Positions 1,318 through 44,993 of a stretch of DNA of 46,829 nucleotides are shown here, piece by piece. Positions within the stretch are counted from its first letter, which is position 1. Every line of letters starts with the position of its first letter. The translations under genes were made by a program, and so were the position numbers. The DNA comes from a virus. A model generated the notes under the pieces. That model saw nothing but the letters and a program-made list of their open reading frames with translations, did not search any database and was not told the DNA's origin. The stretch is taken from the IMG/VR virus record IMGVR_UViG_3300017971_000391, positions 1 through 46,829 of that record; one strand, given 5' to 3'.

Positions 1318-1354
1318 GTCTGGTTTTCTGACTTACAACTACGACACCAACTAG

Positions 1355-1389
1355 CCCGGTCCTGGGTCCTCCGGGACCGGGTTTTTTTT
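1355..1389 (+). terminator. Rho-independent terminator after the first fibre gene
   Basis: CCCGGTCC pairs with GGACCGGG and is followed by eight T residues (1382-1389). It lies 37 nt after the TGA of the fibre gene. With the upstream terminator it brackets that gene as a single unit. Confidence 0.9.
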
Positions 1390-2852: not shown

Positions 2853-2896
2853 ACGATGCCCCTGCCCAAGGTAGCGGCAGGGGCGTCGTTTTTTTG
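2853..2896 (+). terminator. Strong rho-independent terminator after second fibre gene
   Basis: A 14-bp stem, ACGATGCCCCTGCC against GGCAGGGGCGTCGT with one G-T pair, encloses a nine-base loop and runs into a T-rich tail ending at about 2895. It begins nine bases after the TGA of the 372-residue fibre gene. Confidence 0.9.
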
Positions 2897-3346: not shown

Positions 3347-3789
3347 TGTCCTATAGGCTGCAGTGTTACGCCGAATTCAGCGGGCGGTTCAACAACGACT
3401 CTGTCAAAGGCGGAGACCGTGGTAAGCCGGCGCAGTTGACCGTCACTGGCGACGAGTACAAGTTCAGAGACGTAGTGGCTGCTAACACCAACACGCTCGT
3501 CTATAACGACAACCTTGGTGGGTTTGTGTTCCTTTGGATACAAACAAACAGGGTTGTGACCATCGAGTTGACTACAAGCGGCACCAACACCGAGGCGCTC
3601 AAGGTCGAACTACCTGGTGGACTTGCCGGCACAGATGGTGTGCTCCAATTCGGCGTACCGTTCATTCTTGGCAGCGATGACACGTACGATGCAGATGCCG
3701 CCGCCGCACGGATCGCCACCATCCGCATTTACAATGAGGACACGACCAGCGGCAACGACGCGATCGTCAAGTGCCACGTAATCAACTGA
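3346..3789 (+). CDS. Hypothetical virion protein
   Basis: ATG 3346 shares its A with the upstream TGA; GGGGA about eight bases upstream acts as the ribosome site. GTG 3343 is a possible but worse start. The 147-residue product is beta-rich and acidic, without membrane segments or cysteine motifs (core phrases TIELTTSGTNTEALKVELPGG and IATIRIYNED). It sits directly before the head-tail adaptor pair, so a head-completion, neck or decoration role is plausible. I do not recognise the family. Confidence 0.5.
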   Translation: MSYRLQCYAEFSGRFNNDSVKGGDRGKPAQLTVTGDEYKFRDVVAANTNTLVYNDNLGGFVFLWIQTNRVVTIELTTSGTNTEALKVELPGGLAGTDGVLQFGVPFILGSDDTYDADAAAARIATIRIYNEDTTSGNDAIVKCHVIN

Positions 3790-3799
3790 GAGGCGCACG

Positions 3800-4519
3800 A
3801 TGGCTGAGTCCACATTATCCCTCACGTATTCTGACGTTCAGTATGAGGTCGGGAAGTTCCTTGGTTGGGACCGAACGGCCGCAAGCTGGACGGCGACGCA
3901 GAACACAGACTTCACTTACGTTTTGAAGCGAGGTCTTCGTCTATTCTATTTCCCGCCCTCGCAGGAACAAGACAAGCCGTACCACGAGTGGTCGTTCCTT
4001 CGCAAGTATGCGAACGTCACCTTGGTAGATGGCAACTCCAGTTACACCCTCGCAGACGACTGCGGCGGGACGGTGCTCGACTTCAGCGCCACCTACGCCG
4101 CTGGATCTGGTCGCCCGCGCCTACGGTCAATCCCCGAGTCCGAACTGCGAGCGCTTCAGTCGTACTCGAACCAAACGAAGAAGTGGCCACTGTACTACGC
4201 AGTTCGCAACCAGGCGATCGCGAACACCGGCCAGCGCTACGAGATGCTTGTCTACCCAACACCTGGCGCGACCCAGGTCAATGCAACCATATCGTATTCG
4301 TACGTCTACGTTCCCAACGTCATGGCGACAGACGCTGTCTACCCAGACGGCGGCGGCATGTACTCCGAGGTCTTACTGTCTGCAATCCTTGCCGCGGCCG
4401 AAGCATCGATCGACGATGACCCCATGGGCAAACACATGGAGCGCTTTGGTCTGCTCATCACAGCAGCCGTGCGTGACGACAAGAATAAGAAGCTGACAGG
4501 CACGGGAGCGAACCTATGA
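3800..4519 (+). CDS. Head-tail adaptor / tail tubular A-like protein, copy 1
   Basis: A 239-residue protein. Its landmarks recur in the next gene: an N-terminal helix then a FPPS/FPPI turn, HEWSFLR, a YTLADD/YDLPRD strand, a VYPTPGAT/LHPTPDST strand, and a C-terminal helix LLSAILAAAE / LASVMSAAE. Such all-helical plus beta-sandwich proteins of this length, placed before the nozzle-like gene, fit the adaptor/gatekeeper (tail tubular protein A) class of podoviruses. A GAGGCGCACG site precedes ATG 3800. The last four bases overlap the start of copy 2 (ATGA). The assignment is by order and pattern, not by a specific motif. Confidence 0.6.
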   Translation: MAESTLSLTYSDVQYEVGKFLGWDRTAASWTATQNTDFTYVLKRGLRLFYFPPSQEQDKPYHEWSFLRKYANVTLVDGNSSYTLADDCGGTVLDFSATYAAGSGRPRLRSIPESELRALQSYSNQTKKWPLYYAVRNQAIANTGQRYEMLVYPTPGATQVNATISYSYVYVPNVMATDAVYPDGGGMYSEVLLSAILAAAEASIDDDPMGKHMERFGLLITAAVRDDKNKKLTGTGANL

Positions 4520-5352
4520 ACTGGCCAATTGAGAACCGAGCAGAAGACAACCAGGTCGATTACTTCTACCTGCGACGCAGGGTTGCGAAGTACCTTCATG
4601 GCAACTACGACATCGCCACGATGGATGACGAGCAGCAGGAAGAGATAAAGGAAGTCATCAACCTCGGATACATGCAGTATTGCTTCCCGCCGATCCTCCC
4701 GCCCGAGGTTGCCGCTGGGACGTCGTACGCGCACGAGTGGTCGTTCATGCGGCCCAAGTGGGAATTCGAGACAGTTGCCGATCAGCGACGGTATGATCTA
4801 CCGCGTGACTGGGAGCGACCCATTGGTGACCTGTGCTACGTGAACACCAACTCGAATCAGTATGTGCCGATCAAGTTCACGTCGGCCTCGCGTCTGCGAT
4901 CGATCGAATACCAAACTGACTACAGCACCTACCCCGAGTGGGCAGCCCTTGAGATCATCGAGAGCGTTGGTGCTGAGCCACAGACACAGGTCCTGGTGCT
5001 ACACCCGACACCTGACTCGACGTATCAACTGGCCATCCAGTATCAGTCGCACTCAAAGAGACTGACCGAAGACGAGCCGTACCCAGTTGGTGGGCAGTTA
5101 CACGGGCCGGGCATCCTGGCCAGCGTGATGTCCGCAGCCGAGCACCACAAGAACAACGCGCACGGGCACCTGCACGATGCCTTCATTCGCGTTCTTGCAT
5201 CGAACGTGGTGCGTGACCAAGAGCGTGGAGCCACGCTGCTCGGTTACAATGGCAACCACCAGGATGAGATCTGGGGGCGCGGCCAGCTTCGCCAAAAGGG
5301 CGGGCTCTACTATAATGATGTGACCTATAATGGAAGTACATATTCCGGGTGA
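4516..5352 (+). CDS. Head-tail adaptor / tail tubular A-like protein, copy 2
   Basis: A 278-residue product starting within the stop of copy 1. It is a diverged tandem duplicate: shared landmarks are FPP, AHEWSFMRPKW, QRRYDLPRDW, VLHPTPDSTYQ and EPYPVGGQLHGPGI. It is 39 residues longer, mainly a C-terminal Gly/Tyr/Asn-rich tail (GLYYNDVTYNG) that could be an extended contact arm. Two adjacent non-identical adaptors suggest two different rings, or a ring plus gatekeeper, at the portal-tail joint. An HNH gene follows four bases after the stop. Confidence 0.6.
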   Translation: MNWPIENRAEDNQVDYFYLRRRVAKYLHGNYDIATMDDEQQEEIKEVINLGYMQYCFPPILPPEVAAGTSYAHEWSFMRPKWEFETVADQRRYDLPRDWERPIGDLCYVNTNSNQYVPIKFTSASRLRSIEYQTDYSTYPEWAALEIIESVGAEPQTQVLVLHPTPDSTYQLAIQYQSHSKRLTEDEPYPVGGQLHGPGILASVMSAAEHHKNNAHGHLHDAFIRVLASNVVRDQERGATLLGYNGNHQDEIWGRGQLRQKGGLYYNDVTYNGSTYSG

Positions 5353-5355
5353 TCA

Positions 5356-5769
5356 ATGATTGAATGCAAGCGATGTCACGAAGACAAATGCGAAGATATG
5401 TTTCCAAAGTGCGCTCGAAAGAGCAACGGACGACAAAGCTGGTGCAAGGCGTGTAACTCTGAGTACGGCTCGAAAAAACGTTCCGAAAACTGGGAAGACA
5501 ACTACTTCAAGCGCTTGTGGAAGGTCTATGGATTAACCAAAGAGGCATTCAGCGAACTTTTAAGTGCCTGTGACGGCTTGTGCCAATGCTGCGGAATTGA
5601 GATGGAACGACGTGTGTCTGCAAGCAAATCTTCAAGCACATTGTGTGTTGATCATGATCATATTACTGGTGATGTGCGCGGTCTTTTGTGCAGGAATTGT
5701 AACATGGCATTAGGGTGTATCGGACACGATCCTAACGTCGCCAAAAACATGGCCAACTATCTCTCTTGA
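5356..5769 (+). CDS. Free-standing HNH endonuclease, endonuclease VII family
   Basis: A 137-residue protein. The C-terminal half has the endonuclease VII (ββα-metal) signature: zinc pairs CQCC near residues 78-81 and CRNC near 113-116, and the catalytic core CVDHDHITGDVRGLLC around 98-113. The N-terminal 35 residues add another CxxC...CxxC zinc site (C4, C7, C30, C33). It sits alone between two tail genes and its DNA looks more AT-rich than its neighbours, both typical of a free-standing homing-type endonuclease rather than a structural gene. A resolvase role like T4 gp49 is possible but less likely from its location. Confidence 0.85.
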   Translation: MIECKRCHEDKCEDMFPKCARKSNGRQSWCKACNSEYGSKKRSENWEDNYFKRLWKVYGLTKEAFSELLSACDGLCQCCGIEMERRVSASKSSSTLCVDHDHITGDVRGLLCRNCNMALGCIGHDPNVAKNMANYLS

Positions 5770-5784
5770 TGATCGGAACACAAC

Positions 5785-7356
5785 ATGGCCAGGAAGCTCC
5801 AACCTGTCAATGCATCCTTCCCAATGGGCGGGATGGATGTTAGGTCTCAGAAAATTGCACAGCCGAATGCAACCTCACCTGACCTGCAGAACGTTCGATC
5901 ATACGATACCATCGAAGACAGGTCCCGCGGTGGGCAACGCCCAGGGCTGACAAAGTACACGGCTAACGCCGCCGTGGCCAATACACGCATCCAGGATATC
6001 GGCTACACGGTGTTCGTGAACAACACCGCTCCAACTGCGACCTCCATAGGCGTCCGAAACACCGTCTTAACGGCCGTGTGCGACGGGAACGTCTACACAT
6101 TCAATACGAGCGGCTTCACACTCGCCACTGGCGGATCAGGCGCATTGTCGAACGCCGCTCCCTGCGTCTTTTCCAGCGACGCGTTCGGGGTCACCTACTA
6201 CGCAGATGGTGTGAACCAGGTCAAGTTCACGGCGGACAACACGACCGTCAACACATGGTCGACAACCGCTGGTGACTTCCCCACCGGTGGGGTTGGGATT
6301 ATGCCGCGCCTGATCGCCTCCTGGCGCGGGCGCATTGTGCTGTCCGGCCTGCGAACGGATCCCCACAATTGGTTCATGTCCAAGCTCGGCGATCCGTTGG
6401 ATTGGGACTACGCTCCTGTCGCTGTCACCGAGGTTCAGGCCGCACAGGGCGGCGTTGGATACGTGGGTAAGCTAGGAGACGTCATCAACTCCCTGGTGCC
6501 GTATAACGACGATGTGCTCGTTGTGGGCTGTGACAAGTCTATCTGGCAGATGGCCGGCGACCCGATGGCTGGAGGCAAGCTCGACCTCATAACCGACAAG
6601 ATCGGCATGGCGTGGGGGCGTCCGTTCTGCCGCGATCAGCGAGGCACAATGTTCTTTTTCAGCACCGGCGCGCGCATCTATCAGATGCAATGGGGTGGCA
6701 AGCCCGAAGAGATCTCCGAGGGAATCAACCCAGAGATCAAGGCCACCGATCTGAACACCAGTATTGTGCGCATGGTGCACGATGATGACCGCGATGGCTT
6801 CCATGTGTTCATCACGCCGCTCACCGCTGGGGCAGCCGAGCACTGGTTCTACGACCAGCGGTCCAACGGTTGGTTTAAGGACGTCTACGCCTCCAACGAC
6901 TTCAACCCAGTGTCGTGCCTACGGTACCTGGGTGACAACGAACGCTTCACACTGATCGGCGGCGAGGATGGATACGTCCGGTACACAGACGACACTGCCT
7001 ACACAGACGACGGCACCAACACGACTAGCTACGTGGTCCTTGGCCCGTTCATGTCTGATGGTGCACACTACCCGCACCTGATCACCGAGATCCAAGGTAT
7101 CCTCGACTCGAGCAGCACCGGCATATTGTACGAGATCCTGTCTGGCGACTCGCCCGACGCAGCGCTGGCATCCGCCGCCTCGCCGTTCGTTGGGGAGGGC
7201 ACGCTCGGTGCCGGCCGCAGTCTGTCGTTCCAACCGCGCGAGCGATCGTTCTACACTTACATCAAGGTCGGGCTCAAAGTGAACACGGCATGGGCAATGG
7301 AAGAAGTCAGAGCCAGGATGTCTGTGATCACCAGTTCAAGAGGAAGGTCTCTCTGA
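5785..7356 (+). CDS. Tail nozzle-like protein (tail tubular B class, beta-propeller)
   Basis: A 523-residue, all-beta protein. The N terminus (MDVRSQK...SPDLQNVRSYD...RPGLTKY) and the middle (IVLSGLRTDPHNW, GDPLDWDY, DDVLVVGCDKSIWQMAGDP, then GMAWGRPFCRDQRGTMFF) repeat short blade-like units as in the beta-propeller nozzle proteins at the end of short phage tails. It follows the adaptor pair (with the HNH gene between) and precedes the fibre by one base, which is the usual order adaptor-nozzle-fibre. I rate the family strongly from pattern and order, but no search was run. Confidence 0.7.
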   Translation: MARKLQPVNASFPMGGMDVRSQKIAQPNATSPDLQNVRSYDTIEDRSRGGQRPGLTKYTANAAVANTRIQDIGYTVFVNNTAPTATSIGVRNTVLTAVCDGNVYTFNTSGFTLATGGSGALSNAAPCVFSSDAFGVTYYADGVNQVKFTADNTTVNTWSTTAGDFPTGGVGIMPRLIASWRGRIVLSGLRTDPHNWFMSKLGDPLDWDYAPVAVTEVQAAQGGVGYVGKLGDVINSLVPYNDDVLVVGCDKSIWQMAGDPMAGGKLDLITDKIGMAWGRPFCRDQRGTMFFFSTGARIYQMQWGGKPEEISEGINPEIKATDLNTSIVRMVHDDDRDGFHVFITPLTAGAAEHWFYDQRSNGWFKDVYASNDFNPVSCLRYLGDNERFTLIGGEDGYVRYTDDTAYTDDGTNTTSYVVLGPFMSDGAHYPHLITEIQGILDSSSTGILYEILSGDSPDAALASAASPFVGEGTLGAGRSLSFQPRERSFYTYIKVGLKVNTAWAMEEVRARMSVITSSRGRSL

Positions 7357-21865: not shown

Positions 21866-22615
21866 ATGAAGTCAATCCTAACATTGATGTTTGCCGTGCT
21901 CCTCGCCGGCCCGTTGTACGGTGAGGTCAAACTGGACTCGCCGAATTCTTTTGCTCGCGACTCCAGGATCCGGCTGGACATCGGTGGACTCGAAGGACAG
22001 GAGTACCGCACGAAGTGGTGGATCAGATCCAACGACGGCCGCGACGCTCCAGATCACGATGTGTTCAACAGTGGGGCGACGTGCGCTGTCTGGGCTGGGC
22101 CTGGTCACTATGAAGCGTTGATCACGGTCGCAGTCATCGATGGCACCGACATCACCTGGTACGACATCGAGCATGAGTTCAAAGTAATTGGCGACGGCCC
22201 CCTCCCACCGCCGGATGATGACGACCCGATCATCCCGCCGCCGAACGATCAATATGATTTTGGCGACGTCGCCGGCGAAGTGGTTAGACTATGCAAGCCA
22301 GTGAAAGACGACAGCAAAGCGGAAGCCGCGGCTCTGATAGCAAACTCCTACCGCAAGCACGGTCTGCTGGCCGTCAAGGGTGACTTCGATGACCAGAACG
22401 ACCTGGCTGACGCCACCTCCGCTGACTTCGTCGCCGAGCTTGGGCTGAACCGCTACCTGCGATGGCGTCCTGTGATGACTCGAATCCGACAACACATGCA
22501 AGGGCTGATGAACGACGACAAGTTGGAGTCGGGCGACATGCCGGCATGGGGCGCTCTCTGGGAAGAGTACGCCAAGGGATTTGATGCAGTGGCCTTGCAG
22601 GGAGTACGACGATGA
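21866..22615 (+). CDS. Secreted protein with beta domain and proline/aspartate linker
   Basis: A 249-residue protein beginning two bases after the previous stop (ribosome site AAGAAGGACTG inside the upstream gene). Residues 1-20 (MKSILTLMFAVLLAGPLYGE) form a clear signal peptide. About 21-110 is a beta-sandwich, PKD/Ig-like (FNSGATCAVWAGPGHYEALI). A linker of Pro and Asp (PLPPPDDDDPIIPPP) follows, then a helical C-terminal domain of about 115 residues with no known motif. A signal peptide on a phage protein just before a protease and holin-like genes points to an envelope-acting or lysis-related role. It could instead be a cargo or host-modifying protein. The stop overlaps the next ATG. Confidence 0.55.
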   Translation: MKSILTLMFAVLLAGPLYGEVKLDSPNSFARDSRIRLDIGGLEGQEYRTKWWIRSNDGRDAPDHDVFNSGATCAVWAGPGHYEALITVAVIDGTDITWYDIEHEFKVIGDGPLPPPDDDDPIIPPPNDQYDFGDVAGEVVRLCKPVKDDSKAEAAALIANSYRKHGLLAVKGDFDDQNDLADATSADFVAELGLNRYLRWRPVMTRIRQHMQGLMNDDKLESGDMPAWGALWEEYAKGFDAVALQGVRR

Positions 22616-23535
22616 GAAGGACAGATCTCTACGCTCTTTCTGATCTTGAAAGGGGACAGATAGAATTCAACAACCGTCGCCTCGAGCGATTCTATTACAA
22701 CGGTCCAGGTGCCTGGGTCCGGCCGACCAGGGCATCGGGGCCAACTGTGTCGCAGATGCACCGCGTCTTCCGCGCGACCCAGCGGGATGTCGACCTGGTC
22801 GAGATCATGGAAGTCGCACACGAGGAGACGTTCGACGAGAAGTTGCCATGGCGCTCCCAGATCCGCGGGACATGCGTTGGACAGGGTGCGGCTACGGCAG
22901 CCGACATGGTGATGTCCGTTGCCTGGCTGGTGTTCAACAAGCTGATCCCCGGGCGCGCGGCCGTTGCGACAGCCTACGCCGGCTCGCGCGTCGAAGTCGC
23001 CAATCGCCCGGGAAGCTGGGACGGCAGCAACGGCGTCTGGGTAGCCAAGTGGGTAAGGGACTGGGGCGTCGCCACGATCCAGGAACTTGGGTTGTCCCAC
23101 GGCGAACTGGCCGCTGACGAAAGACTGGGGATCCGCTGGACCGCATCGCGCGCCGGAGTCCCCGAGAAGTTTGAGAAGATTTCGCGCGAGCGACCGGTCG
23201 CCAACACCCCACAGGTGACGACGGCCGAAGAGTTGATCGCCTGCATGGAGTCTGGCAACCCTGTCATACATGGGTCAAACCTGATCCCGTACGATCGTGA
23301 CACAGATAACGTCGTCGATGTCCGCCGAGCCGGTGGCCATCTGACGGTGTTCGGTGGAATTCGCTGGGTGAACGGCGAGCCCCAGATCAAATACGTTAAC
23401 AGTTGGTCCCGATTGTGGGGACGCAACGGCTGTGTCTGGATCTCGATGAGAGACGCAGTTCGGATTCTGAGCCAAGATGATTCCTACGCCTTCGTTGGAA
23501 TGCAAGGATTGGTTCCATCAATTCCTCTTCTTTAA
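22612..23535 (+). CDS. Papain-fold (C1-like) cysteine peptidase
   Basis: A 307-residue protein with the full catalytic set of the papain fold in order: Gln83 (RSQIRGT), Cys88 (GTCVGQGAATAADM, followed by the active-site helix), His243 (AGGHLTVFGG) and Asn263-Ser-Trp (YVNSWSRLWG). There is no signal peptide or propeptide-like segment. ATG 22612 overlaps the previous stop (ATGA), so it is coupled to the secreted protein. Possible roles are lysis (cutting envelope or peptidoglycan peptides), virion maturation or virion-borne degradation. The position before holin-like genes favours lysis. It replaces the amidase, lysozyme or CHAP endolysin one would expect here; none is recognised in this window. 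Confidence 0.75.
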   Translation: MRRTDLYALSDLERGQIEFNNRRLERFYYNGPGAWVRPTRASGPTVSQMHRVFRATQRDVDLVEIMEVAHEETFDEKLPWRSQIRGTCVGQGAATAADMVMSVAWLVFNKLIPGRAAVATAYAGSRVEVANRPGSWDGSNGVWVAKWVRDWGVATIQELGLSHGELAADERLGIRWTASRAGVPEKFEKISRERPVANTPQVTTAEELIACMESGNPVIHGSNLIPYDRDTDNVVDVRRAGGHLTVFGGIRWVNGEPQIKYVNSWSRLWGRNGCVWISMRDAVRILSQDDSYAFVGMQGLVPSIPLL

Positions 23536-23544
23536 GGAGTAGCC

Positions 23545-23877
23545 ATGAAGATCGTTACGAAAATTTTCCTGCGTAAAGAACTGAGACAGGCTCGCCGCAA
23601 GAATGACGTCGAAGCCGTCGCCCGTTTGGAGCAGACACTGAATGATCCCGACCTCTTGGACTTGGTTCACGAAGCCAACGCCATCGAGTGGGAGTACGAG
23701 CGCGAGCTACGCCTCTTCCAGGCCAAGCAAAGCGGAACCACGGTCAAGGCCGATTTCGGCAGCGCCATCAGTGACTTCTTCGCTTTCCTATTTGAGAACC
23801 GTGAAGGTATCTTCGAGATGATCATGACGTTCATCCAGTTGATCGCTCTGTTCTCACCGGCACCCGAGACAGACTGA
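23545..23877 (+). CDS. Small protein with C-terminal hydrophobic helix (lysis-cassette candidate)
   Basis: A 110-residue protein. Residues 1-65 are helical and highly charged (ELRQARRKNDVEAVARLEQ). Residues about 72-104 are hydrophobic with Phe-rich stretches (ISDFFAFLFENREGIFEMIMTFIQLIALF) broken by one charged turn, which would make one or two membrane-contacting helices. AAGGAGTAGCC precedes ATG 23545. It may be a holin, a holin partner or a membrane-anchored virion protein. No family is recognised. Confidence 0.45.
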   Translation: MKIVTKIFLRKELRQARRKNDVEAVARLEQTLNDPDLLDLVHEANAIEWEYERELRLFQAKQSGTTVKADFGSAISDFFAFLFENREGIFEMIMTFIQLIALFSPAPETD

Positions 23878-23890
23878 AAGGCTCGAACAG

Positions 23891-24193
23891 ATGGACCTCA
23901 TGCAACCAGAAATCGTCGTAGCTCTACTTTCCCTCATAGGCGTTGTAGTCGCTGCATGGTTTAGTTACATCACAAAGCGTGATACCCATGCAATCAACAA
24001 GTCTGTGAATCACATCCAACCCGGCGAGAAGCGTCTCTATCAGCTTGCCGTCGAGGCGAGCCTCCAATTGAACAACATCGACAACCGTGTGAGCGGCATG
24101 GAAAACAAACTTGACGCTCATATCAAAGAGGTGTGTCCGATTCTGGAGGTGTGCAGGGAGAAAACTTCAGGAATCTTACAGGAATCTCCTTGA
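23891..24193 (+). CDS. Holin-like membrane protein (DUF2746-like)
   Basis: A 100-residue protein with one N-terminal membrane helix (IVVALLSLIGVVVAAWFSYI, residues about 8-27), then a basic turn (TKRDTHAINK) and a coiled coil (INKSVNHIQPGEKRLYQLA...LNNIDNRVSGMENKL). The single membrane helix plus helical tail and the VNHxQPGE phrase resemble DUF2746-type putative holins of actinobacteriophages. The size and location at the end of the late operon fit. The gene ends within the next promoter: TTGACT of P1 starts at 24190. Confidence 0.55.
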   Translation: MDLMQPEIVVALLSLIGVVVAAWFSYITKRDTHAINKSVNHIQPGEKRLYQLAVEASLQLNNIDNRVSGMENKLDAHIKEVCPILEVCREKTSGILQESP

Positions 24194-24217
24194 CTTTTCT
24201 GGTTTGTATGCTATGAT
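24190..24217 (+). promoter_or_regulatory. Promoter P1 (sigma-70-like, extended -10)
   Basis: TTGACT (24190-24195), a 16-bp spacer and TATGAT (24212-24217), preceded by TG at the extended -10 position (TGCTATGAT). The surrounding bases TCCTTGACTTT and GTATGCTATG recur almost exactly in P2 at 26930-26957 with the same spacer, which supports both. Transcription would start near 24224 and run into an immediate hairpin/terminator. Confidence 0.75.
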
Positions 24218-24225
24218 TCTAGTGT

Positions 24226-24272
24226 GGGAAGTCTCTTCCCCGGCAGGGCTTGGTGCTCTGTCGGGGTTTTTT
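24226..24272 (+). terminator. Leader attenuator: overlapping hairpin and terminator between P1 and the GroES-like gene
   Basis: At the expected 5' end of the P1 transcript, GGGAAG-TCT-CTTCCC (24226-24240) forms a tight hairpin. Its 3' arm shares bases with the 5' arm of a longer stem, CCCCGGCAGGGC (24238-24249) against GCTCTGTCGGGG (24255-24266), followed by six T residues. The two folds exclude each other in part, and the terminator lies before ATG 24297. It could also terminate late-operon read-through. Confidence 0.75.
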
Positions 24273-24296
24273 CGTTGTTCACACAGAGGAGTAGCC

Positions 24297-24602
24297 ATGT
24301 CAACAGTCCTAGTCCCAGTCAATGAGTACTGCACCGTGCGCGAGCTTGCCAAAGAAAGCAAGTCAGTCATCGCGATGCCAGAAGGGTACAACAAGAGCCA
24401 ACTGATGCGCTGTGAAGTGCTTCAGGTCAGCCCGTTCGGCCTACGCGCCCTCGCCGGCCCCACCTCCCGCGAAGCCCACCAATTCACCACCGGGGCCGTC
24501 GTTCTTTGCGACAGAGGGTCCGCCATCAAAACCGACGACGATGAAGTCCTGCTCGTACGCATGGATGCAGTCGTGGCCGTCGAAGTCGAAGTCGAAGGAT
24601 AA
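24297..24602 (+). CDS. GroES-like (Cpn10-fold) co-chaperonin
   Basis: The start ATG 24297 follows GAGGAG; the frame is open upstream but there it crosses the terminator. The 101-residue product follows the GroES strand plan: VLVPVNEY at the start, VIAMPEGYNKSQLMRCEVLQVSP, then TTGAVVLCDRGSA and a last strand pair DDDEVLLVRMDAVVAV, equivalent to the GroES ending E-x-x-I-L-R-x-x-D-V-L-A-V. Length matches GroES (about 95-110). Residues about 20-30 could be the mobile loop that binds GroEL. Phage co-chaperonins of this kind (for example T4 gp31) redirect host GroEL to capsid folding. The similarity is by fold pattern, so confidence is moderate. Confidence 0.6.
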   Translation: MSTVLVPVNEYCTVRELAKESKSVIAMPEGYNKSQLMRCEVLQVSPFGLRALAGPTSREAHQFTTGAVVLCDRGSAIKTDDDEVLLVRMDAVVAVEVEVEG

Positions 24603-24626: not shown

Positions 24627-24821
24627 ATGCTCATAAAGGTAGGAGATACCATTCGGACAGACTTCTGCACCGGCGATGTCCAGGAGATCATCGACGGCAT
24701 CAAAAAGCGTTGGACGAGCGACATCTACTACCGCATCAAGGTCACTGATCCCAAGGTGCACTGGCGTCGCCGTAATCAGATTGTCAAAATCGAGGAGGTG
24801 AAGCAGCACCATGCGAACTGA
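24627..24821 (+). CDS. Small hypothetical protein, SH3-like
   Basis: A 64-residue basic protein preceded by GAAAGGAACCGAGGG. The pattern IKVGDTIRTDF...YYRIKVTDPKVHWRRRNQIVKIEEV suggests a single small beta barrel. Its C terminus overlaps the exonuclease start by 11 nt and carries that gene's ribosome site (GAGGAGG), so the two are coupled. It may be a nucleic-acid-binding accessory factor; no family is recognised. Confidence 0.5.
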   Translation: MLIKVGDTIRTDFCTGDVQEIIDGIKKRWTSDIYYRIKVTDPKVHWRRRNQIVKIEEVKQHHAN

Positions 24822-25656
24822 AATTCCGGTTAACTACGACCTACCACCCGAGATCACTCACCAGGAGTTACTCGACCACCTGATGAACAACAGGCGGGTC
24901 ACGTTGTTCTTCGATATCGAAACCCGACCCGCAGACCGTGAGACCCTTGACGATCTCTTCCAGGACGAAGAGGTTAAGCTACCCGAAAACCCCGGGGTCT
25001 TTGATCCTAACAAGATCAAGTATGGAAACACAAAGGACCCTGCAAAACGCGAAGCCAAGCGCAAGGACGAGATGGCTAAGCATGATGCTGCGTTGGCGAG
25101 TTGGCATGATGATTGTCAACAGGCGAAGGATGATGCATGGGCAGCTTTTGTAGACAGGGCCACCCTCAGCCCAGTATCAGGACGGGTACTGGCCGTTGGC
25201 TACGGATTGAAACGAGGCGACGGCGTCCAGCTATGCCTGGATGTTGAGGCCGACAAGGAGATGGATCTGCTGCTGAGGTTCTGGAAGTTTGTTGCGCTCC
25301 TCAAGAAGAGGAGCGGCAAACTTGTCTCTTACAATGGGAATCGATTTGATATCCCGTTCTGTGTGCGACGGTCGTGGGCGTATGAGGACGTAACTCCTCT
25401 GAACCTGCGGACGAAGTACAACAAGATGGAAGACTTCTGCGTTGATGCTTACGAGCACTACAAGTGCGGAGACTACCAAGCCAACATCAAGCTGGACGCA
25501 CTCGCCCGGATGATGGGCGTCCAGCGGAAGTTGGAGGGCATGACAGGAGACATGTTCTGGAAAGAGTACAGGGACAACCCTGAGAGGGCCATGGACTATC
25601 TGGCCCTCGACATCCACTCGCTGGCTGAAGTGGCCATGCGCATGAGAATTGCCTAA
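24811..25656 (+). CDS. DEDDy 3'-5' exonuclease (stand-alone proofreader)
   Basis: A 281-residue protein with all DnaQ-like motifs: Exo I FFDIETRP (Asp35, Glu37), Exo II SYNGNRFDIPF (Asp180) and Exo III YLALD (Tyr263, Asp267), the Tyr marking the DEDDy group. Between Exo I and Exo II about 80 residues (45-125) are a charged, Lys/Asp-rich helical insertion (KDPAKREAKRKDEMAKHDAA) not usual in compact DnaQ domains. The DnaE-type polymerase at 39527 has no exonuclease domain of its own, so this protein is its likely proofreader in trans, or it acts in recombination. It has a GAGGAGG ribosome site. Confidence 0.85.
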   Translation: MRTEIPVNYDLPPEITHQELLDHLMNNRRVTLFFDIETRPADRETLDDLFQDEEVKLPENPGVFDPNKIKYGNTKDPAKREAKRKDEMAKHDAALASWHDDCQQAKDDAWAAFVDRATLSPVSGRVLAVGYGLKRGDGVQLCLDVEADKEMDLLLRFWKFVALLKKRSGKLVSYNGNRFDIPFCVRRSWAYEDVTPLNLRTKYNKMEDFCVDAYEHYKCGDYQANIKLDALARMMGVQRKLEGMTGDMFWKEYRDNPERAMDYLALDIHSLAEVAMRMRIA

Positions 25657-26929: not shown

Positions 26930-26957
26930 TTGACTTTCCCAAAAAGTGTGCTATGTT
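26930..26957 (+). promoter_or_regulatory. Promoter P2 (sigma-70-like, extended -10)
   Basis: TTGACT (26930-26935), a 16-bp spacer, TATGTT (26952-26957) and TGC directly before the -10. It shares TCCTTGACTTT, the spacer length and GTxTGCTATG with P1. It begins four bases after the ATPase stop and drives the SSB-like gene through a leader hairpin. Confidence 0.75.
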
Positions 26958-26977
26958 TTACAGTAGGTTGATGATCA

Positions 26978-27024
26978 CGGCGGGGTGCACGTTCACCACC
27001 CCGCCGCACCTTTTGATTTTTTCT
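26978..27024 (+). terminator. Terminator-like leader hairpin between P2 and the SSB-like gene
   Basis: CGGCGGGGTG (26978-26987) pairs perfectly with CACCCCGCCG (26997-27006) around a nine-base loop. After four bases comes a broken T-rich tract (TTTTGATTTTTT, 27011-27022). The SSB start and its AGGAGA site lie just downstream. The tract is slightly displaced from the stem, so termination is probably partial: an attenuator or an RNA-stability hairpin. Confidence 0.6.
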
Positions 27025-27044: not shown

Positions 27045-27563
27045 ATGGCAGTCACACACTTCGACGAATTCGATCCCACCAAAGCAGACCAGGGCGGATT
27101 GCCCAAACCCGGCAAGTGCCAGTTGTTGGTCTCGGGAATCGAAGAGCACGACGACAGCGACCGACCGTACATTTCGGTCACGCACGAAATCGCCGCTCAT
27201 GAAGACGAAGATCAGGTCGGAAAGATCTCTTACAACAACTTCTCGCTGACCGGGAAGGCATCCCGCCGGGCTGTCATGTTTGCGGAAGCATGCGGCATCG
27301 TCACGAAGGAAGAGCTTGCACAGGCCGCGGCCGAAGGCACCTCGATTGACATTCCTTACGACAAGGCTTACGGGGCCGTGTACTTCGCAACGCTCGAAGA
27401 GAGCGAGTACAATGGCAAAAAGAAGTGTCGCGCCGAGTGGGACATCAAGCACCTCAACAACGAAGAGTGTGCAGACTACCCATGCAGCCCCGACTATCCA
27501 CGGCCGGAAGTCGCCGACAAGAAGGAAGACAACAAGGGCAACGCTGACAAAGCGCCCTTCTAG
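27045..27563 (+). CDS. SSB-like protein (DUF669-type), acidic tail ending in PF
   Basis: The start ATG 27045 follows AGGAGAACACG; the in-frame GTG further up lies in the leader hairpin and is rejected. The 172-residue product shows the pattern of phage DUF669-type ssDNA-binding proteins: KPGKCQLLVSG, FSLTGKASRRAVMFAEACG, a D-x-x-Y-x-x-AYGAVYF strand and ESEYNGKKK. The tail is acidic and ends ADKAPF, like the C-terminal tip by which bacterial SSBs recruit partners. It is flanked by its own promoter, a leader hairpin and a terminator, so it is a separately controlled single-gene unit as expected for an abundant protein. Confidence 0.75.
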   Translation: MAVTHFDEFDPTKADQGGLPKPGKCQLLVSGIEEHDDSDRPYISVTHEIAAHEDEDQVGKISYNNFSLTGKASRRAVMFAEACGIVTKEELAQAAAEGTSIDIPYDKAYGAVYFATLEESEYNGKKKCRAEWDIKHLNNEECADYPCSPDYPRPEVADKKEDNKGNADKAPF

Positions 27564-27601: not shown

Positions 27602-27641
27602 ACACAGGACTGGTTTCCTCCGCCAGTCCTGTGTTTTTTTT
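27602..27641 (+). terminator. Rho-independent terminator after the SSB-like gene
   Basis: A perfect 12-bp stem, ACACAGGACTGG (27602-27613) with CCAGTCCTGTGT (27623-27634), a nine-base loop and eight T residues. The 27642-27680 leader of the helicase gene shows no clear promoter, so the helicase probably relies on partial read-through. Confidence 0.9.
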
Positions 27642-33263: not shown

Positions 33264-33264
33264 G

Positions 33265-33525
33265 GCCGGCGGGAAAAGGTGGGGTTGTAGGGGTTGCTGG
33301 CTCGCTGCAGACCCACTGTCAGCGCAAATGGCCGATATGGCACACAGGCCCGAAAATGGGGCCTAGAACGCTGCCGGATTTTCCAGAGCCTCGATAGACC
33401 TGTTTGAAATTTGGCGAAGCTGAGCGCGAAGCTGGCCCCCTAGGATTGGATCTCCGATCTGGTCCTAGCTGGCCGGCCGCGGTTCGGCGAATTCGCTTTT
33501 CCATTTTTCTTTTCTTCCCGCCGGC
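33265..33525. repeat. Inverted repeat bounding the GC-rich half of the gap
   Basis: Left arm GCCGGCGGGAAAAG (33265-33278) begins two bases after the primase stop. Right arm CTTTTCTTCCCGCCGGC (33509-33525) is its reverse complement with a three-base insertion. The arms are about 230 bp apart, too far for a simple terminator; they may mark a mobile or rearranged segment or paired protein sites. Confidence 0.55.
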
Positions 33526-33590
33526 GACAGCCCCCTATAATAATTTTGGACCAATTAGAAAGAGAGGTTAGTAAAAAAATGTATATATGT

Positions 33591-33621
33591 CTTTCTCTCT
33601 AAAAAAGGGAAAAAGAGAAAG
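33591..33621 (+). other. AT-rich hairpin in the gap
   Basis: CTTTCTCT (33591-33598) pairs with AGAGAAAG (33614-33621) around an A-rich 15-base loop. The upstream bases 33556-33567 (TAGAAAGAGAGG) also carry the purine motif. It sits in the most easily melted part of the window. Confidence 0.4.
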
Positions 33622-33699
33622 AGTAGTAGTTAAGTTCTTATTGTTTCTAGGTTTAGATTTTGCACTTCCTTTTCACTACTTTTCACCCCCAAAGGGACT

Positions 33700-33716
33700 G
33701 TGATCAAAGTGATCAC
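33700..33716 (+). promoter_or_regulatory. Palindromic operator-like site
   Basis: GTGATC-AAAGT-GATCAC is a perfect 6-bp inverted repeat with a five-base spacer, 33 bp before ATG 33749. This spacing suits a dimeric regulator or initiator and also contains two GATC sites. Confidence 0.4.
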
Positions 33717-33748
33717 GGTTTGAGTGTCACCAATTTGACGAGGGAAAA

Positions 33749-34254: not shown

Positions 34255-34283
34255 TTGACAAATCGCATTTTGTAGCCCATAAT
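34255..34283 (+). promoter_or_regulatory. Promoter P3 (sigma-70-like)
   Basis: TTGACA (34255-34260), a 17-bp spacer and CATAAT (34278-34283), 43 bp before ATG 34327. The -35 is consensus. Unlike P1 and P2 it has no TGC extended -10 and no leader hairpin. It would start the operon running to about 44952. Confidence 0.7.
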
Positions 34284-39448: not shown

Positions 39449-39612
39449 GCTTCTGGTGTCCAGTTGCGGTCACCGTGTTGTACGCTCTCACAGCGTACGC
39501 GGCCGGCGGCGTGACCATGAGGGGTCTTGCGAGTAGATTTGGTGTATCAGTTACGGTTGTCTGTGGAATCATCAACAACAAGAGGTGGAATCATCTTTGC
39601 CCATCTTCATAA
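39445..39612 (+). CDS. Small protein: membrane-like N terminus fused to HNH-type HTH remnant
   Basis: ATG 39445 overlaps the previous stop and has GGGAG six bases upstream. The 55-residue product starts with a membrane-like helix (CPVAVTVLYALTAYAAGG) and continues directly into MRGLASRFGVSVTVVCGIIN plus NKRWNHL, which is the helix-turn-helix that ends many phage HNH endonucleases (pattern LAxxFGVSxxxVxxIxxxxxW). No HNH domain precedes it. This looks like a truncated small membrane gene fused to the tail of a deleted endonuclease. It overlaps the proposed DnaE start region. Confidence 0.45.
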   Translation: MSFWCPVAVTVLYALTAYAAGGVTMRGLASRFGVSVTVVCGIINNKRWNHLCPSS

Positions 39613-42600
39613 TCACAGCCATTACAGTCTGCTTGACGGTGCCCAGCACATCGATACCATGGTCGCGCGCGCCAAGGAGATGGGTCAGGAGGCATTGGGC
39701 TTGACCGAGCACGGGAACCTGCATTCTGCCCGCAAATTCTACTCCGAATGCCGCCGCCAATCCATCAACCCCATCCTCGGCTACGAAGCCTATGTCACCA
39801 CCACAGTGGCCGAGAAGGTGCGTGGACGTGGTACGACTCACCTCACGATCCTCGCGAAGAACAACGCCGGCTGGGCCAACTTGGTCAAGCTGGCTTCCTT
39901 CGCGTCGACAGAGGGCTTCTACGTACGCCCGCGGATTGACCGTGAGCTTCTGTATTCGCACCGTGACGGCCTTATCATCCTGTCAGGGTGTATCGGGTCA
40001 GAATTGTCCCAGGCGTGCCTTAACGAGGACCACAGCGAGTCTGAGGAGATCGCAGCCTGGTACAGCAAGACGTTCGGCGACGACTTCTATCTCGAGATCC
40101 AGGACAACGGCACCACGTACCAGACCAGGTGCCTGAAATCCATCCTGGCCCTCGGCGAGAAGATGAGTCTGCCGTGCGTCGCCACAGCCGACTGTCATTA
40201 CACCAACCCAGACGACCACAACCTCCAGGACGTGATGGTGTGCGTTACCACCGGACGCTACCGCTCCATGCCCAAGGAGTCGCCACGGCTCGAGGAGACG
40301 TGCTATTGGATGAAGTCCGAGCAGGAGATGTTAGAGACGTTCGTCGGCAACGAGGACGCTGTCCGCCTGTCGGCCGAGATCGCCCGCAAGTGCAACGTGG
40401 AGATCGAATCGGGCGTACGGCACTTCCCGTCGTTCGAGGTGCCGGGGGCTCGTGATATTGGTTGCAAGGAATGGACGCGTGGCACCATGTCGACTGGCTA
40501 CGGTTGCTTTGGTGGGCATACTGAGTCAGGAGAGAATGTAACCAGGCTATCACATCGTGCGGCAGCGGCCGAGAAGTATGGTGTGCTGTACGATGACCTC
40601 GGCGACTTGGTTGTGTGCCACACATGTGACAACCGATTGTGTGTTGAACCAAGCCATCTGTTCGTAGGAACGCGCCTCGATAACAACAACGACATGGCAC
40701 GCAAGGGGCGTGCCCCATCGGCGGGACAGAAGCTGACCGAAGAGCAGACGCAGGCTGTTATTGACAGCAGTGACTTGCAGCGTGTGATCGCCGAACGGTA
40801 CGACATCACTCAGGGGCAGGTATCAACCATAAAGAGCGGTGGCAAAAAGTCCCGTCGCTTTGATGACGTCGAGGTGCTCGTGAGAAAGCTGGCATTCGAG
40901 GGGCTGCTGGCACGTAAGAAGCGAGCGGACAAGGAATACGTCGATCGTCTCGAGCGGGAGCTTGGCGTCATTGGCCAACTGGGGTTCATGCCGTACTTCG
41001 CTGTCGTGTGGGACTTTTGCAAGTGGGCAAAGTCCCAGGGGATCCTGTATACAGCGAGAGGGTCCGGCGTGGGATCATTGGTGTGTTACTGCCTTGAATT
41101 CTCACACGTGGACCCATTGGAATATGGCCTGCTGTTTGAGAGGTTTCTGGATCCATCACGGCTTGAGGCCCCGGATGTGGATATTGATTTCGAGAAGGAA
41201 CGCCGCGGCGAGGTGATGGAGTACGTCAAGGACAAGTACGGTGCCGACTATGTGTGCCAGATCGGAACGTTCGGAACGTTCGGTGCCAAGATGGCCCTGA
41301 AGGACGTGGGCAAGGTGGAGCGGATCACGGCCGAGGCTGTCGTCAAGATGGCCAACCTGATCCCGACACTGCCAGGCACGACGCTGGACATGGCTCGCGG
41401 CAAGGTCGAAGAGCTTGACACGATGATCAAGGACTACGACGAGTGCAGCCAGTTGTGGGACATGGCCCGCCGCATCGAGGGTATGGCCAAGTCAGTTGGT
41501 GTGCACGCCGCCGGCGTGGTGATGGGTGACAAGCCGCTGACCGAGTACGTGCCGATCATGCGTGCCCGGGATGGGTCCATTGTCACACAGTGGGACATGA
41601 ACGACTGCGAGGATGCAGGGCTACTCAAGATGGACTTCCTGGGACTCCGCAACCTGTCGATCCTCAGTGCTGCTATTGGCATCATCGAGGACCGTACCGG
41701 CAAGCGGATCGACTGGCACAAGATCCCTCAGGACGACCCGGACGTGTACGCATCGCTCGCGAGCGGTGACACTGCCGGCGTGTTCCAGCTTGAAGCCACA
41801 GGCATGACGGGGCTGCTCAAGAAGATGAAGCCCAAGTGTATCGAGGATATCGTTGCGTGCATCGCGTTGTACCGGCCTGGCCCGCTCGACGCAGGCATGG
41901 TTGACGAGTACCTGGCAGTCAGGAACGGTGAGAAGAAAGCGACGTACGCCCACCCGGACATGGAAGAGATCCTGGGCTACACGTACGGCGTCATGGTGTA
42001 CCAGGAGCAGGTCATGATGGTGCTCCACAAGATCGGCGACATCCCATTATCGGAGAGCTACTCATGTATCAAGGCGATCAGCAAAAAGATCAAGGCCAAG
42101 GTGGATCTGTACCGCCCGCAGTTCATTGCGGGGTGCAGTGCGAAGGGTGTGGACGGGGCCGCATTGTGGGACCAGATTGGAACGTTCGCTCGCTACGGCT
42201 TCAACAAGTCCCACTCGACTGGCTATGCGTTTATTGGGTACCAAACTGCGTGGTTAAAGCATCACTACCCAGTGGAGTACATGGCGGCCCTACTCTCATG
42301 CGACATCTCGCAGAGGAACTTCACTGGACGCGACGGCCTGTGCCAGCACATGGAAGATTGCCAGCGACATGGAATTGAAGTCGCCATGCCTGACGTTAAC
42401 GTGTGCGGGCCGGACTTCCGCGTGCGTGATGGTAGGATCCTGTTTGGCCTGGATGCGATCAAGGGCATACCTCACTCAGCAGGTGTGGCCATTGCCGCAG
42501 CCCAGCCATTCACCGACCTGTTTGACTTCTGTGCCCGCGTGCCGAAGTCAGAGTGCCCACGGGCTGCCATCCGCAACCTGATCAGAGTTGGTGCCATGCC

Positions 42601-43309
42601 AGGCGAGCAGACACGGGAGTCGATGGAAGCGACGCTCGACCGAGCCATGAAGCTGGCTGCGGGAGAGTACAAGAGACCAGAGAAACAGGAAGGGAAGTGG
42701 AATGAAGGACAGCCTGTCTGTGACACTACACGCCTGGAGCGTGAGCGTGAGCTATGTGGCTTCTACGTTACGGGTCATCCTACCGATGCTTGGCCTTGGC
42801 TTGGGTTGCTGGGCAGTGTTCGTGACGATGTCGGTATTTGCCTTGTGGGCGGGGTTGTCACGACGATCAAGGAACGCTTCACACAGTTGGGAAAGAAGTT
42901 CATCACTTTTGTCGTGGACTCGAACGGACACACAACCGAGTGTATCGTCTGGGATCCAGGAAGCAAAGCAGGAATGATGCGGCCTGTCAAGGACGGCAAC
43001 GTCGTGGTGGTGCGTGGCAAGGCTCGCGACCGCTCGACACTCGAGCTTACGGTCATGTCAGTTAAGACCCCTGATGAGTACCTGTCCAAACGCCGGCTCG
43101 GCATCGTCGTCGACTGCCCGGAAAACAGGATTATGCAGGTCGTCGATATGGCGGTCAAGCATGAGAAGTACGATGGCGAGCAGTTCGCCATCCGCGTGGA
43201 CGAAGAGACCTTCCTATCAGAGATCACAGTCAACCTCACCGAGGACCTGCTCCTGGACATGCAGTCCATTGACGGGTGTGACGTGAGCATAATGGAGAGC
43301 AGAAGATGA
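39527..43309 (+). CDS. dnaE: DnaE-type DNA polymerase III alpha subunit with embedded HNH domain
   Basis: Up to 1260 residues. The PHP domain starts at HLHNHSHYSLLDG (about 26) with TEHGNLHS and RPRID...CIGSE; the palm has PDVDIDF (about 548-554) and LKMDFLGL (Asp at about 703); finger, helix-hairpin and a C-terminal OB domain (VGGVVTTIKERFTQLGKK) follow. This is C-family replicase, about 100 residues longer than a bacterial DnaE because residues about 308-441 are an HNH endonuclease. The start is uncertain: TTG 39527 has AGGGG only two bases away, and GTG 39542 or 39563 lack good sites. Typical DnaE begins just before HLHNH. It probably works with the exonuclease at 24811 and the primase-helicase. 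Confidence 0.9.
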   Translation: MRVDLVYQLRLSVESSTTRGGIIFAHLHNHSHYSLLDGAQHIDTMVARAKEMGQEALGLTEHGNLHSARKFYSECRRQSINPILGYEAYVTTTVAEKVRGRGTTHLTILAKNNAGWANLVKLASFASTEGFYVRPRIDRELLYSHRDGLIILSGCIGSELSQACLNEDHSESEEIAAWYSKTFGDDFYLEIQDNGTTYQTRCLKSILALGEKMSLPCVATADCHYTNPDDHNLQDVMVCVTTGRYRSMPKESPRLEETCYWMKSEQEMLETFVGNEDAVRLSAEIARKCNVEIESGVRHFPSFEVPGARDIGCKEWTRGTMSTGYGCFGGHTESGENVTRLSHRAAAAEKYGVLYDDLGDLVVCHTCDNRLCVEPSHLFVGTRLDNNNDMARKGRAPSAGQKLTEEQTQAVIDSSDLQRVIAERYDITQGQVSTIKSGGKKSRRFDDVEVLVRKLAFEGLLARKKRADKEYVDRLERELGVIGQLGFMPYFAVVWDFCKWAKSQGILYTARGSGVGSLVCYCLEFSHVDPLEYGLLFERFLDPSRLEAPDVDIDFEKERRGEVMEYVKDKYGADYVCQIGTFGTFGAKMALKDVGKVERITAEAVVKMANLIPTLPGTTLDMARGKVEELDTMIKDYDECSQLWDMARRIEGMAKSVGVHAAGVVMGDKPLTEYVPIMRARDGSIVTQWDMNDCEDAGLLKMDFLGLRNLSILSAAIGIIEDRTGKRIDWHKIPQDDPDVYASLASGDTAGVFQLEATGMTGLLKKMKPKCIEDIVACIALYRPGPLDAGMVDEYLAVRNGEKKATYAHPDMEEILGYTYGVMVYQEQVMMVLHKIGDIPLSESYSCIKAISKKIKAKVDLYRPQFIAGCSAKGVDGAALWDQIGTFARYGFNKSHSTGYAFIGYQTAWLKHHYPVEYMAALLSCDISQRNFTGRDGLCQHMEDCQRHGIEVAMPDVNVCGPDFRVRDGRILFGLDAIKGIPHSAGVAIAAAQPFTDLFDFCARVPKSECPRAAIRNLIRVGAMPGEQTRESMEATLDRAMKLAAGEYKRPEKQEGKWNEGQPVCDTTRLERERELCGFYVTGHPTDAWPWLGLLGSVRDDVGICLVGGVVTTIKERFTQLGKKFITFVVDSNGHTTECIVWDPGSKAGMMRPVKDGNVVVVRGKARDRSTLELTVMSVKTPDEYLSKRRLGIVVDCPENRIMQVVDMAVKHEKYDGEQFAIRVDEETFLSEITVNLTEDLLLDMQSIDGCDVSIMESRR
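40447..40850 (+). mobile_element. HNH endonuclease embedded in frame within DnaE
   Basis: Between the DnaE text HFPSFEVPG and VEVLVRKLAFEGLLAR lies about 134 residues of a complete HNH_3-type endonuclease: CKEWTRGTMSTGYGCF, RLSHRAAA, the core VVCHTCDNRLCVEPSHLF, GTRLDNNNDMARKGR, and a terminal HTH (KLTEEQTQAVI...IAERYDITQGQVSTI). The reading frame is continuous on both sides. There are no intein splicing residues, and 400 nt is too short for a group I intron carrying this frame. Confidence 0.8.
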
Positions 43310-44954: not shown

Positions 44955-44993
44955 AAAAAAGGCCCAGGTGCTACTAACACCTGGGCCTTTTTC
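44955..44993. terminator. Bidirectional rho-independent terminator between convergent gene blocks
   Basis: AGGCCCAGGTG (44960-44970) and CACCTGGGCCT (44978-44988) form a perfect 11-bp stem with a seven-base loop; A residues precede it and T residues follow it, so it can work on both strands. It lies between the last plus gene and the first gene of the minus cluster. Confidence 0.9.

Follow-up and report, generated by a model that had tools for sequence, protein, structure and literature searches.

Our analysis of a 46,829-nucleotide stretch of viral DNA, in the following called the window, leans slightly towards a model according to which the intrinsic terminator at the end of the upstream gene block also gates a promoter placed directly in front of it, P1, with read-through feeding an operon of GroES-like, exonuclease and ATPase genes. 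According to this model, the terminator at 24238-24272 would halt transcripts arriving from the upstream structural/lysis block and, as P1 directly precedes it, would stop most P1 transcripts as well, ending them at about 48 nt. The operon would be supplied by the transcripts that read through, whose share might be constant, as leakage from a good promoter, or increase during infection through an antitermination factor. What the DNA as such shows is a promoter-like site followed by the terminator, the border between the gene blocks and the lack of a promoter between terminator and gene; the use of P1, incomplete termination and regulated read-through are the steps that we infer. The features at the site are as follows.

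24190 to 24217, plus strand: predicted P1 promoter, TTGACT (-35, 24190-24195), 16-nt spacer and TATGAT (-10, 24212-24217), with an extended -10 (TGC ahead of TATGAT)
24226 to 24240, plus strand: hairpin H1, GGGAAG-TCT-CTTCCC, of which 24238-24240 is common with the terminator
24238 to 24272, plus strand: intrinsic terminator with a 12-bp stem, a 5-nt loop and six T
24224 to 24272, plus strand: predicted default P1 transcript of about 48 nt with its 3' end in the T-run, deduced from promoter spacing and terminator position

Read across 24180-24300, the order is TTGACT, 16 nt, TATGAT, TCTAGTGT, GGGAAGTCTCTTCCCC, six T, AGGAG and the ATG at 24297. An earlier sequence-only reading had claimed P1, a small hairpin, a terminator and a T-run, all before the ATG, and all of these are present. 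Counting as a pair any promoter and terminator within 90 nt, we found none when the whole window was shuffled 200 times with its dinucleotides preserved, compared to the single pair of P1 and its terminator on the real plus strand. A strict-rule scan of 2.9 million bases, comprising the fetched loci on both strands and the window and allowing a pair distance within 60 nt, returned one further pair, which has no gene start after it.

P1 scores 10/12 against the sigma-70 type consensus, from which the promoter rules of the host may differ, and it carries in addition the TG of an extended -10. Its hexamers lie within the 16-18 nt spacing of sigma-70 type promoters, and a start near 24224 is plausible from this spacing. 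Scanning viral contigs for the motif gave two unrelated matches, and the 29-base motif of P1 and P2, a second promoter described below, stands ahead of a tRNA gene in another virus (L090), a behaviour that would be expected of an ordinary sigma-70 type promoter. By eye, the P1 spacer shows no 6-bp direct repeat, and TAGTGT at 24220-24225 is a poor and early match to the -10-like pause element as defined in PMC6606751.

The terminator consists of CCCCGGCAGGGC-TTGGT-GCTCTGTCGGGG at 24238-24266 (29 nt, 12 pairs, 9 of them G-C), and this G+C-rich stem runs straight into the six T at 24267-24272, as is typical for intrinsic terminators. Folded alone it reaches -24.6 kcal/mol (z -7.0), a value equalled by none of 200 shuffles. 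It is listed first among 15 in the terminator scan, and its d-score is +48, the d-score being of the d'Aubenton-Carafa type with values to be taken as relative only. Strict terminators, defined by at least 9 pairs, at least 6 G-C pairs and a T-run, occur five times on the real plus strand and in none of 200 window shuffles. The distance from promoter to terminator is about 20 bases. From the stem end to the ATG there are 31 nt, leaving no room for a promoter, and a consensus scan found none between the stem end and the ATG at 24297.

The same placement recurs in the window. Four strong plus-strand terminators, with stems ending at 1383, 2889, 24266 and 27634 and d-scores of 36-48, are followed by co-directional gene starts 22, 32, 31 and 47 nt past the respective stem, and the consensus scan detected no convincing promoter between any of them and its next gene. 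A 9/12 promoter match at 2894-2922 was discounted as it overlaps the start codon. The three strong terminators resembling the one at 24238 are:

1353 to 1389, plus strand: strong terminator before a co-directional gene
2853 to 2895, plus strand: strong terminator before a co-directional gene
27602 to 27641, plus strand: strong terminator after the gene served by P2, 47 nt ahead of a RecD-like helicase gene, d-score +41

Strong terminators just before genes predict read-through or processive antitermination, and genes lying behind such terminators without a promoter in between should depend on upstream read-through, by leakage or antitermination. This pattern is the best indirect argument for the P1 terminator not being absolute. 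Two further sites were observed in the window: a promoter-like TTGACA-17-CATAAT (11/12) at 34255-34283, with a small 5-bp hairpin, GGGCA-GACTT-TGCTC, beginning within about 5 nt downstream, and a symmetrical A-run/T-run hairpin at 44956-44992, which could stop transcription on both strands.

The terminator lies at the border of the structural/lysis and the replication gene block, judging from the gene content on either side.

22612 to 24193, plus strand: end of the upstream operon, with one peptidase-like and two further, small genes; the final stop codon overlaps the -35 of P1
24297 to 24602, plus strand: first gene past the terminator, 101 aa, weakly GroES/Cpn10-like, ribosome-binding site AGGAG
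24627 to 24821, plus strand: small gene of the same operon, 64 aa, no family in Pfam and PHROGs scans
24811 to 25656, plus strand: PolB-like 3'-5' exonuclease, 281 aa, RNase_H_2 and DNA_pol_B_exo2, with relatives in 6 syntenic phage loci
25670 to 26926, plus strand: AAA_24 ATPase, 418 aa, with relatives in L143, L092 and the Planctomycetota contig L173

The upstream genes at 21866-24193 are tightly packed with gaps of 2, -4, 9 and 13 nt; their label as structural/lysis block is based on gene order, sizes and a peptidase match, most of these genes being without family. Past the ATPase gene follow, all on the plus strand, P2, a 172-aa protein, a strong terminator, a RecD-like helicase, an ERCC4-domain protein and a primase-like protein, with DnaE further on. 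The description of the first gene past the terminator as GroES-like is based on weak matches: its product matches phrog_3188 (GroES) with an E of 1.7e-4, but scores 16.8 bits for Pfam Cpn10 against a cut-off of 21.1, and a PF00166 search of twelve phage records including the window gave no Cpn10 match, making the label marginal. Structure predictions of the GroES-like protein, from its single sequence, and of the P2 protein were too poor to be informative. Pfam and PHROGs scans covering most of the larger genes revealed no antiterminator family, and a number of the small genes are without any family. Within the replication block, the reading frame of the DnaE-like polymerase gene at 39527-43309 includes, around residues 309-443, a segment resembling an HNH endonuclease, which may be an intein or an endonuclease inserted in frame, and the primase-like gene is followed at 33264-33748 by roughly 485 nt that are non-coding, rich in hairpins and in part AT-rich, a candidate replication origin.

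P2 and its leader form a similar second site at 26930-27022, which was absent from the sequence-only reading.

26930 to 26957, plus strand: predicted P2 promoter, TTGACT-16-TATGTT, with TTGACTTT and GTNTGCTATG common to P1 and P2
26978 to 27022, plus strand: P2 leader hairpin and T-run, 10 bp, 9 of them G-C, with an interrupted T-run beginning 4 nt past the stem
27045 to 27563, plus strand: 172-aa protein served by P2, of no known family, with a homologous region in L093

A 28-base pattern of P1 and P2 with up to 3 mismatches occurs at these two sites alone, compared to a chance mean of 0.09; as the pattern was built from P1 and P2 themselves, the count is descriptive. In the P2 leader, the stem at 26978-27006 is followed by a ribosome-binding site and the ATG at 27045. 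The hairpin has a d-score of -41 and by its sequence is not a canonical terminator, indicating that the layout of P1 is repeated in part only. The 172-aa protein may be SSB-like, as suggested by its tail ending in KAPF and its place in the operon.

In the collections searched, the window sequence is its own sole record. No relative was returned by megablast of the 22-27 kb region against phages, by scanning viral contigs with the exonuclease, the GroES-like protein or the helicase taken singly, or by tblastn against phages with the protein of 5785-7356, the GroES-like protein and the ATPase, and a search for the exact terminator pattern gave no match. Alignment-based scans with DnaE and RecD yielded 80 loci each with at most 41% identity, a handful of which keep the order exonuclease-ATPase-helicase. 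In the distant syntenic loci L092, L093, L094, L095, L099, L106, L140 and L143, the exonuclease is 31-34% and the ATPase up to 46% identical; none of these loci has a P1-like promoter-terminator-gene module, their leaders being different and some having hairpins before genes. In L140, a repeated dyad TTGTAC...GTACAA at 1996-2024 and 2294-2322 flanks a small HTH gene, and the dyads look like an operator/promoter pair. The second copy abuts a terminator, and a start from this promoter/operator-like dyad would fall inside the stem, so that we read the latter as the terminator of the preceding HTH gene. Two near-identical leader hairpins with paired stem base changes precede two small genes in L092 (1247-1348 and 1625-1716).

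The sole cellular relative of the ATPase, 41% identical, is found on the Planctomycetota MAG contig L173 near tRNA-Pro, the ATPase being present in 1 of 392 sampled Planctomycetota genomes. At 3358-6425 of this contig, just past the tRNA-Pro gene, an HTH_17 gene accompanies the relative of the window ATPase, which is likely an integrated element and may give a weak hint at a Planctomycetota host. The gene preceding the ATPase on L173 has before it a promoter-like site and then a leader rich in hairpins; this arrangement was not counted as P1-like, as the hairpin by the T-rich stretch scores as non-terminator. Phage gene regulation in Planctomycetota is poorly described.

A plain operon-end terminator, in which case P1 would be weak, idle or incidental and another route would serve to transcribe the replication genes, is the unlikely but serious alternative to gating. 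A long operon without interruption ends directly before the terminator, no other strict or strong terminator was found on the plus strand between 2889 and 27602 (2.9-27.6 kb), and the role of the P1 terminator as the end of the upstream operon, an alternative named already in the sequence-only reading, is well supported by this position. Against the plain terminator we count that P1 is one of only two plus-strand sites that combine at least 10/12 matches with an extended -10, compared to 0.085 expected per shuffle, that its motif recurs at P2 before another gene and that no other operon promoter was found downstream of the terminator. Both roles are compatible, as one terminator can serve as upstream operon end and as P1 gate. 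For gating by the P1 terminator, we count in favour that P2 repeats the promoter type and the arrangement of a hairpin in the leader, and we count against it that the P2 hairpin is non-canonical, that no close relative shows the order promoter-terminator-gene to be conserved and that neither an antiterminator gene nor a known antitermination element was recognised.

The site had also been read as a probable attenuator in which hairpin and terminator are mutually exclusive. Of this, a compact promoter-terminator gate ahead of the operon finds support in the sequence, while the classical two-structure attenuator is not well supported. A true two-state switch, in which H1 forms first and holds the foot CCC so that polymerase passes, and a protein or ligand on H1 alters the outcome, seems improbable to us. 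H1 is a real but weak hairpin (between -6.6 and -7.4 kcal/mol when folded alone, a stability matched in 2 of 200 shuffles), and it overlaps the terminator by the three nucleotides CCC at 24238-24240. The two exclude each other at these three foot pairs and not as entire structures, since H1 coexists with a 9- or 10-bp stem, and nine of the twelve terminator pairs survive regardless of H1. The 12-bp terminator (-24.6 kcal/mol) differs by only 1.5-1.7 kcal/mol from H1 combined with the 10-bp (-23.1 kcal/mol) or 9-bp stem (-22.9 kcal/mol), and 6-bp hairpins of the H1 kind occur at 0.92 per kb of window, making one that abuts a terminator foot uncommon by chance. Upon folding of the leader, as had been proposed, the full terminator is favoured at equilibrium (about 95%), its foot pairing with a probability of 0.94-0.99 as compared to 0.01-0.04 for H1. 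When the transcript is modelled simply as a growing chain, 14 nt of which are hidden in the polymerase, H1 persists together with the 9-bp stem until the polymerase is beyond the T-run. The terminator foot touches the T-run, and leaving 2 or 3 G unpaired before it reduces the d-score of +48 to -19 or -40; as foot loss cuts the d-score and H1 folds first in this model, H1 may contribute kinetically to read-through. The fuller version of this idea, in which the 15-nt 5' hairpin would withhold three foot bases and thereby set, within the first 50 nt, a kinetic choice between the ~48-nt RNA and the replication operon, tunable by a hairpin-binding phage factor, we consider highly improbable. With respect to sensing, the P1 leader has no Rfam match at gathering threshold and gives only sub-threshold chance matches up to an E of 10, hence no known riboswitch, T-box, protein-binding leader family or other ligand-binding fold was found in this search. 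The 14 nt from the predicted start to the terminator stem leave no room for a leader peptide. Least probable of all is that the RNA itself, a short stable RNA suggested before at about 50 nt and here predicted to reach the T-run with a corrected length of about 48 nt, is the product and acts in trans. Promoter and terminator do form a minimal unit with a structured product (24224-24273, 50 nt, z -4.2, no shuffle folding as well), for which IsrK of Gifsy-1 is a precedent (PMC4825925), but the terminator and the 15-nt H1 together leave hardly any free sequence for a pairing seed, and neither an Rfam match nor conservation was seen.

Gating of P1 by the terminator would have its closest parallels in other mobile elements. 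In the PR'/tR' region of lambdoid phages, a strong sigma-70 type promoter is followed by an intrinsic terminator, and the downstream genes need read-through brought about by Q antitermination (PMC6606751). The P1 site likewise has a promoter and then an intrinsic terminator before an operon, with a short RNA as predicted default; it differs in that the phage has no recognised Q-like protein, 21Q-type direct repeats are not seen by eye between the -35 and -10 of P1, the terminator is only ~20 nt from the promoter, and replication-type instead of late genes follow. In Gifsy-1 isrK, termination gives an sRNA and read-through an mRNA (PMC4825925), and one promoter with a near terminator would be expected to do the same at P1, where, unlike in isrK, no antQ-like gene adjoins and a pairing of short and long RNA is unsupported. 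HK022 putL encodes an RNA antiterminator of about 70 nt, in which two long stem-loops act to suppress termination (PMC9378689); the P1 transcript also would have two adjacent hairpins at its very 5' end, just past the promoter, but with ~48 nt, a first stem of 5-6 bp and a second hairpin that, with its six U, constitutes a terminator, it does not qualify as a put RNA. Tn916, a mobile element with terminators ahead of co-directional genes needing read-through, as in the window, achieves this by the element-encoded, processive and most likely cis-acting RNA canT (PMC11658703), of which no equivalent was identified in the P1 phage. As we recognised no Q-like protein and see no obvious promoter repeats, the P1 site resembles PR'/tR' or isrK by layout and is not filed as a member of either. 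If P1 is gated, an uncultured phage would control its replication genes by promoter-proximal termination, as lambdoid phages do their late genes, and we judge the P1 site to be a fresh instance of an already known layout type.
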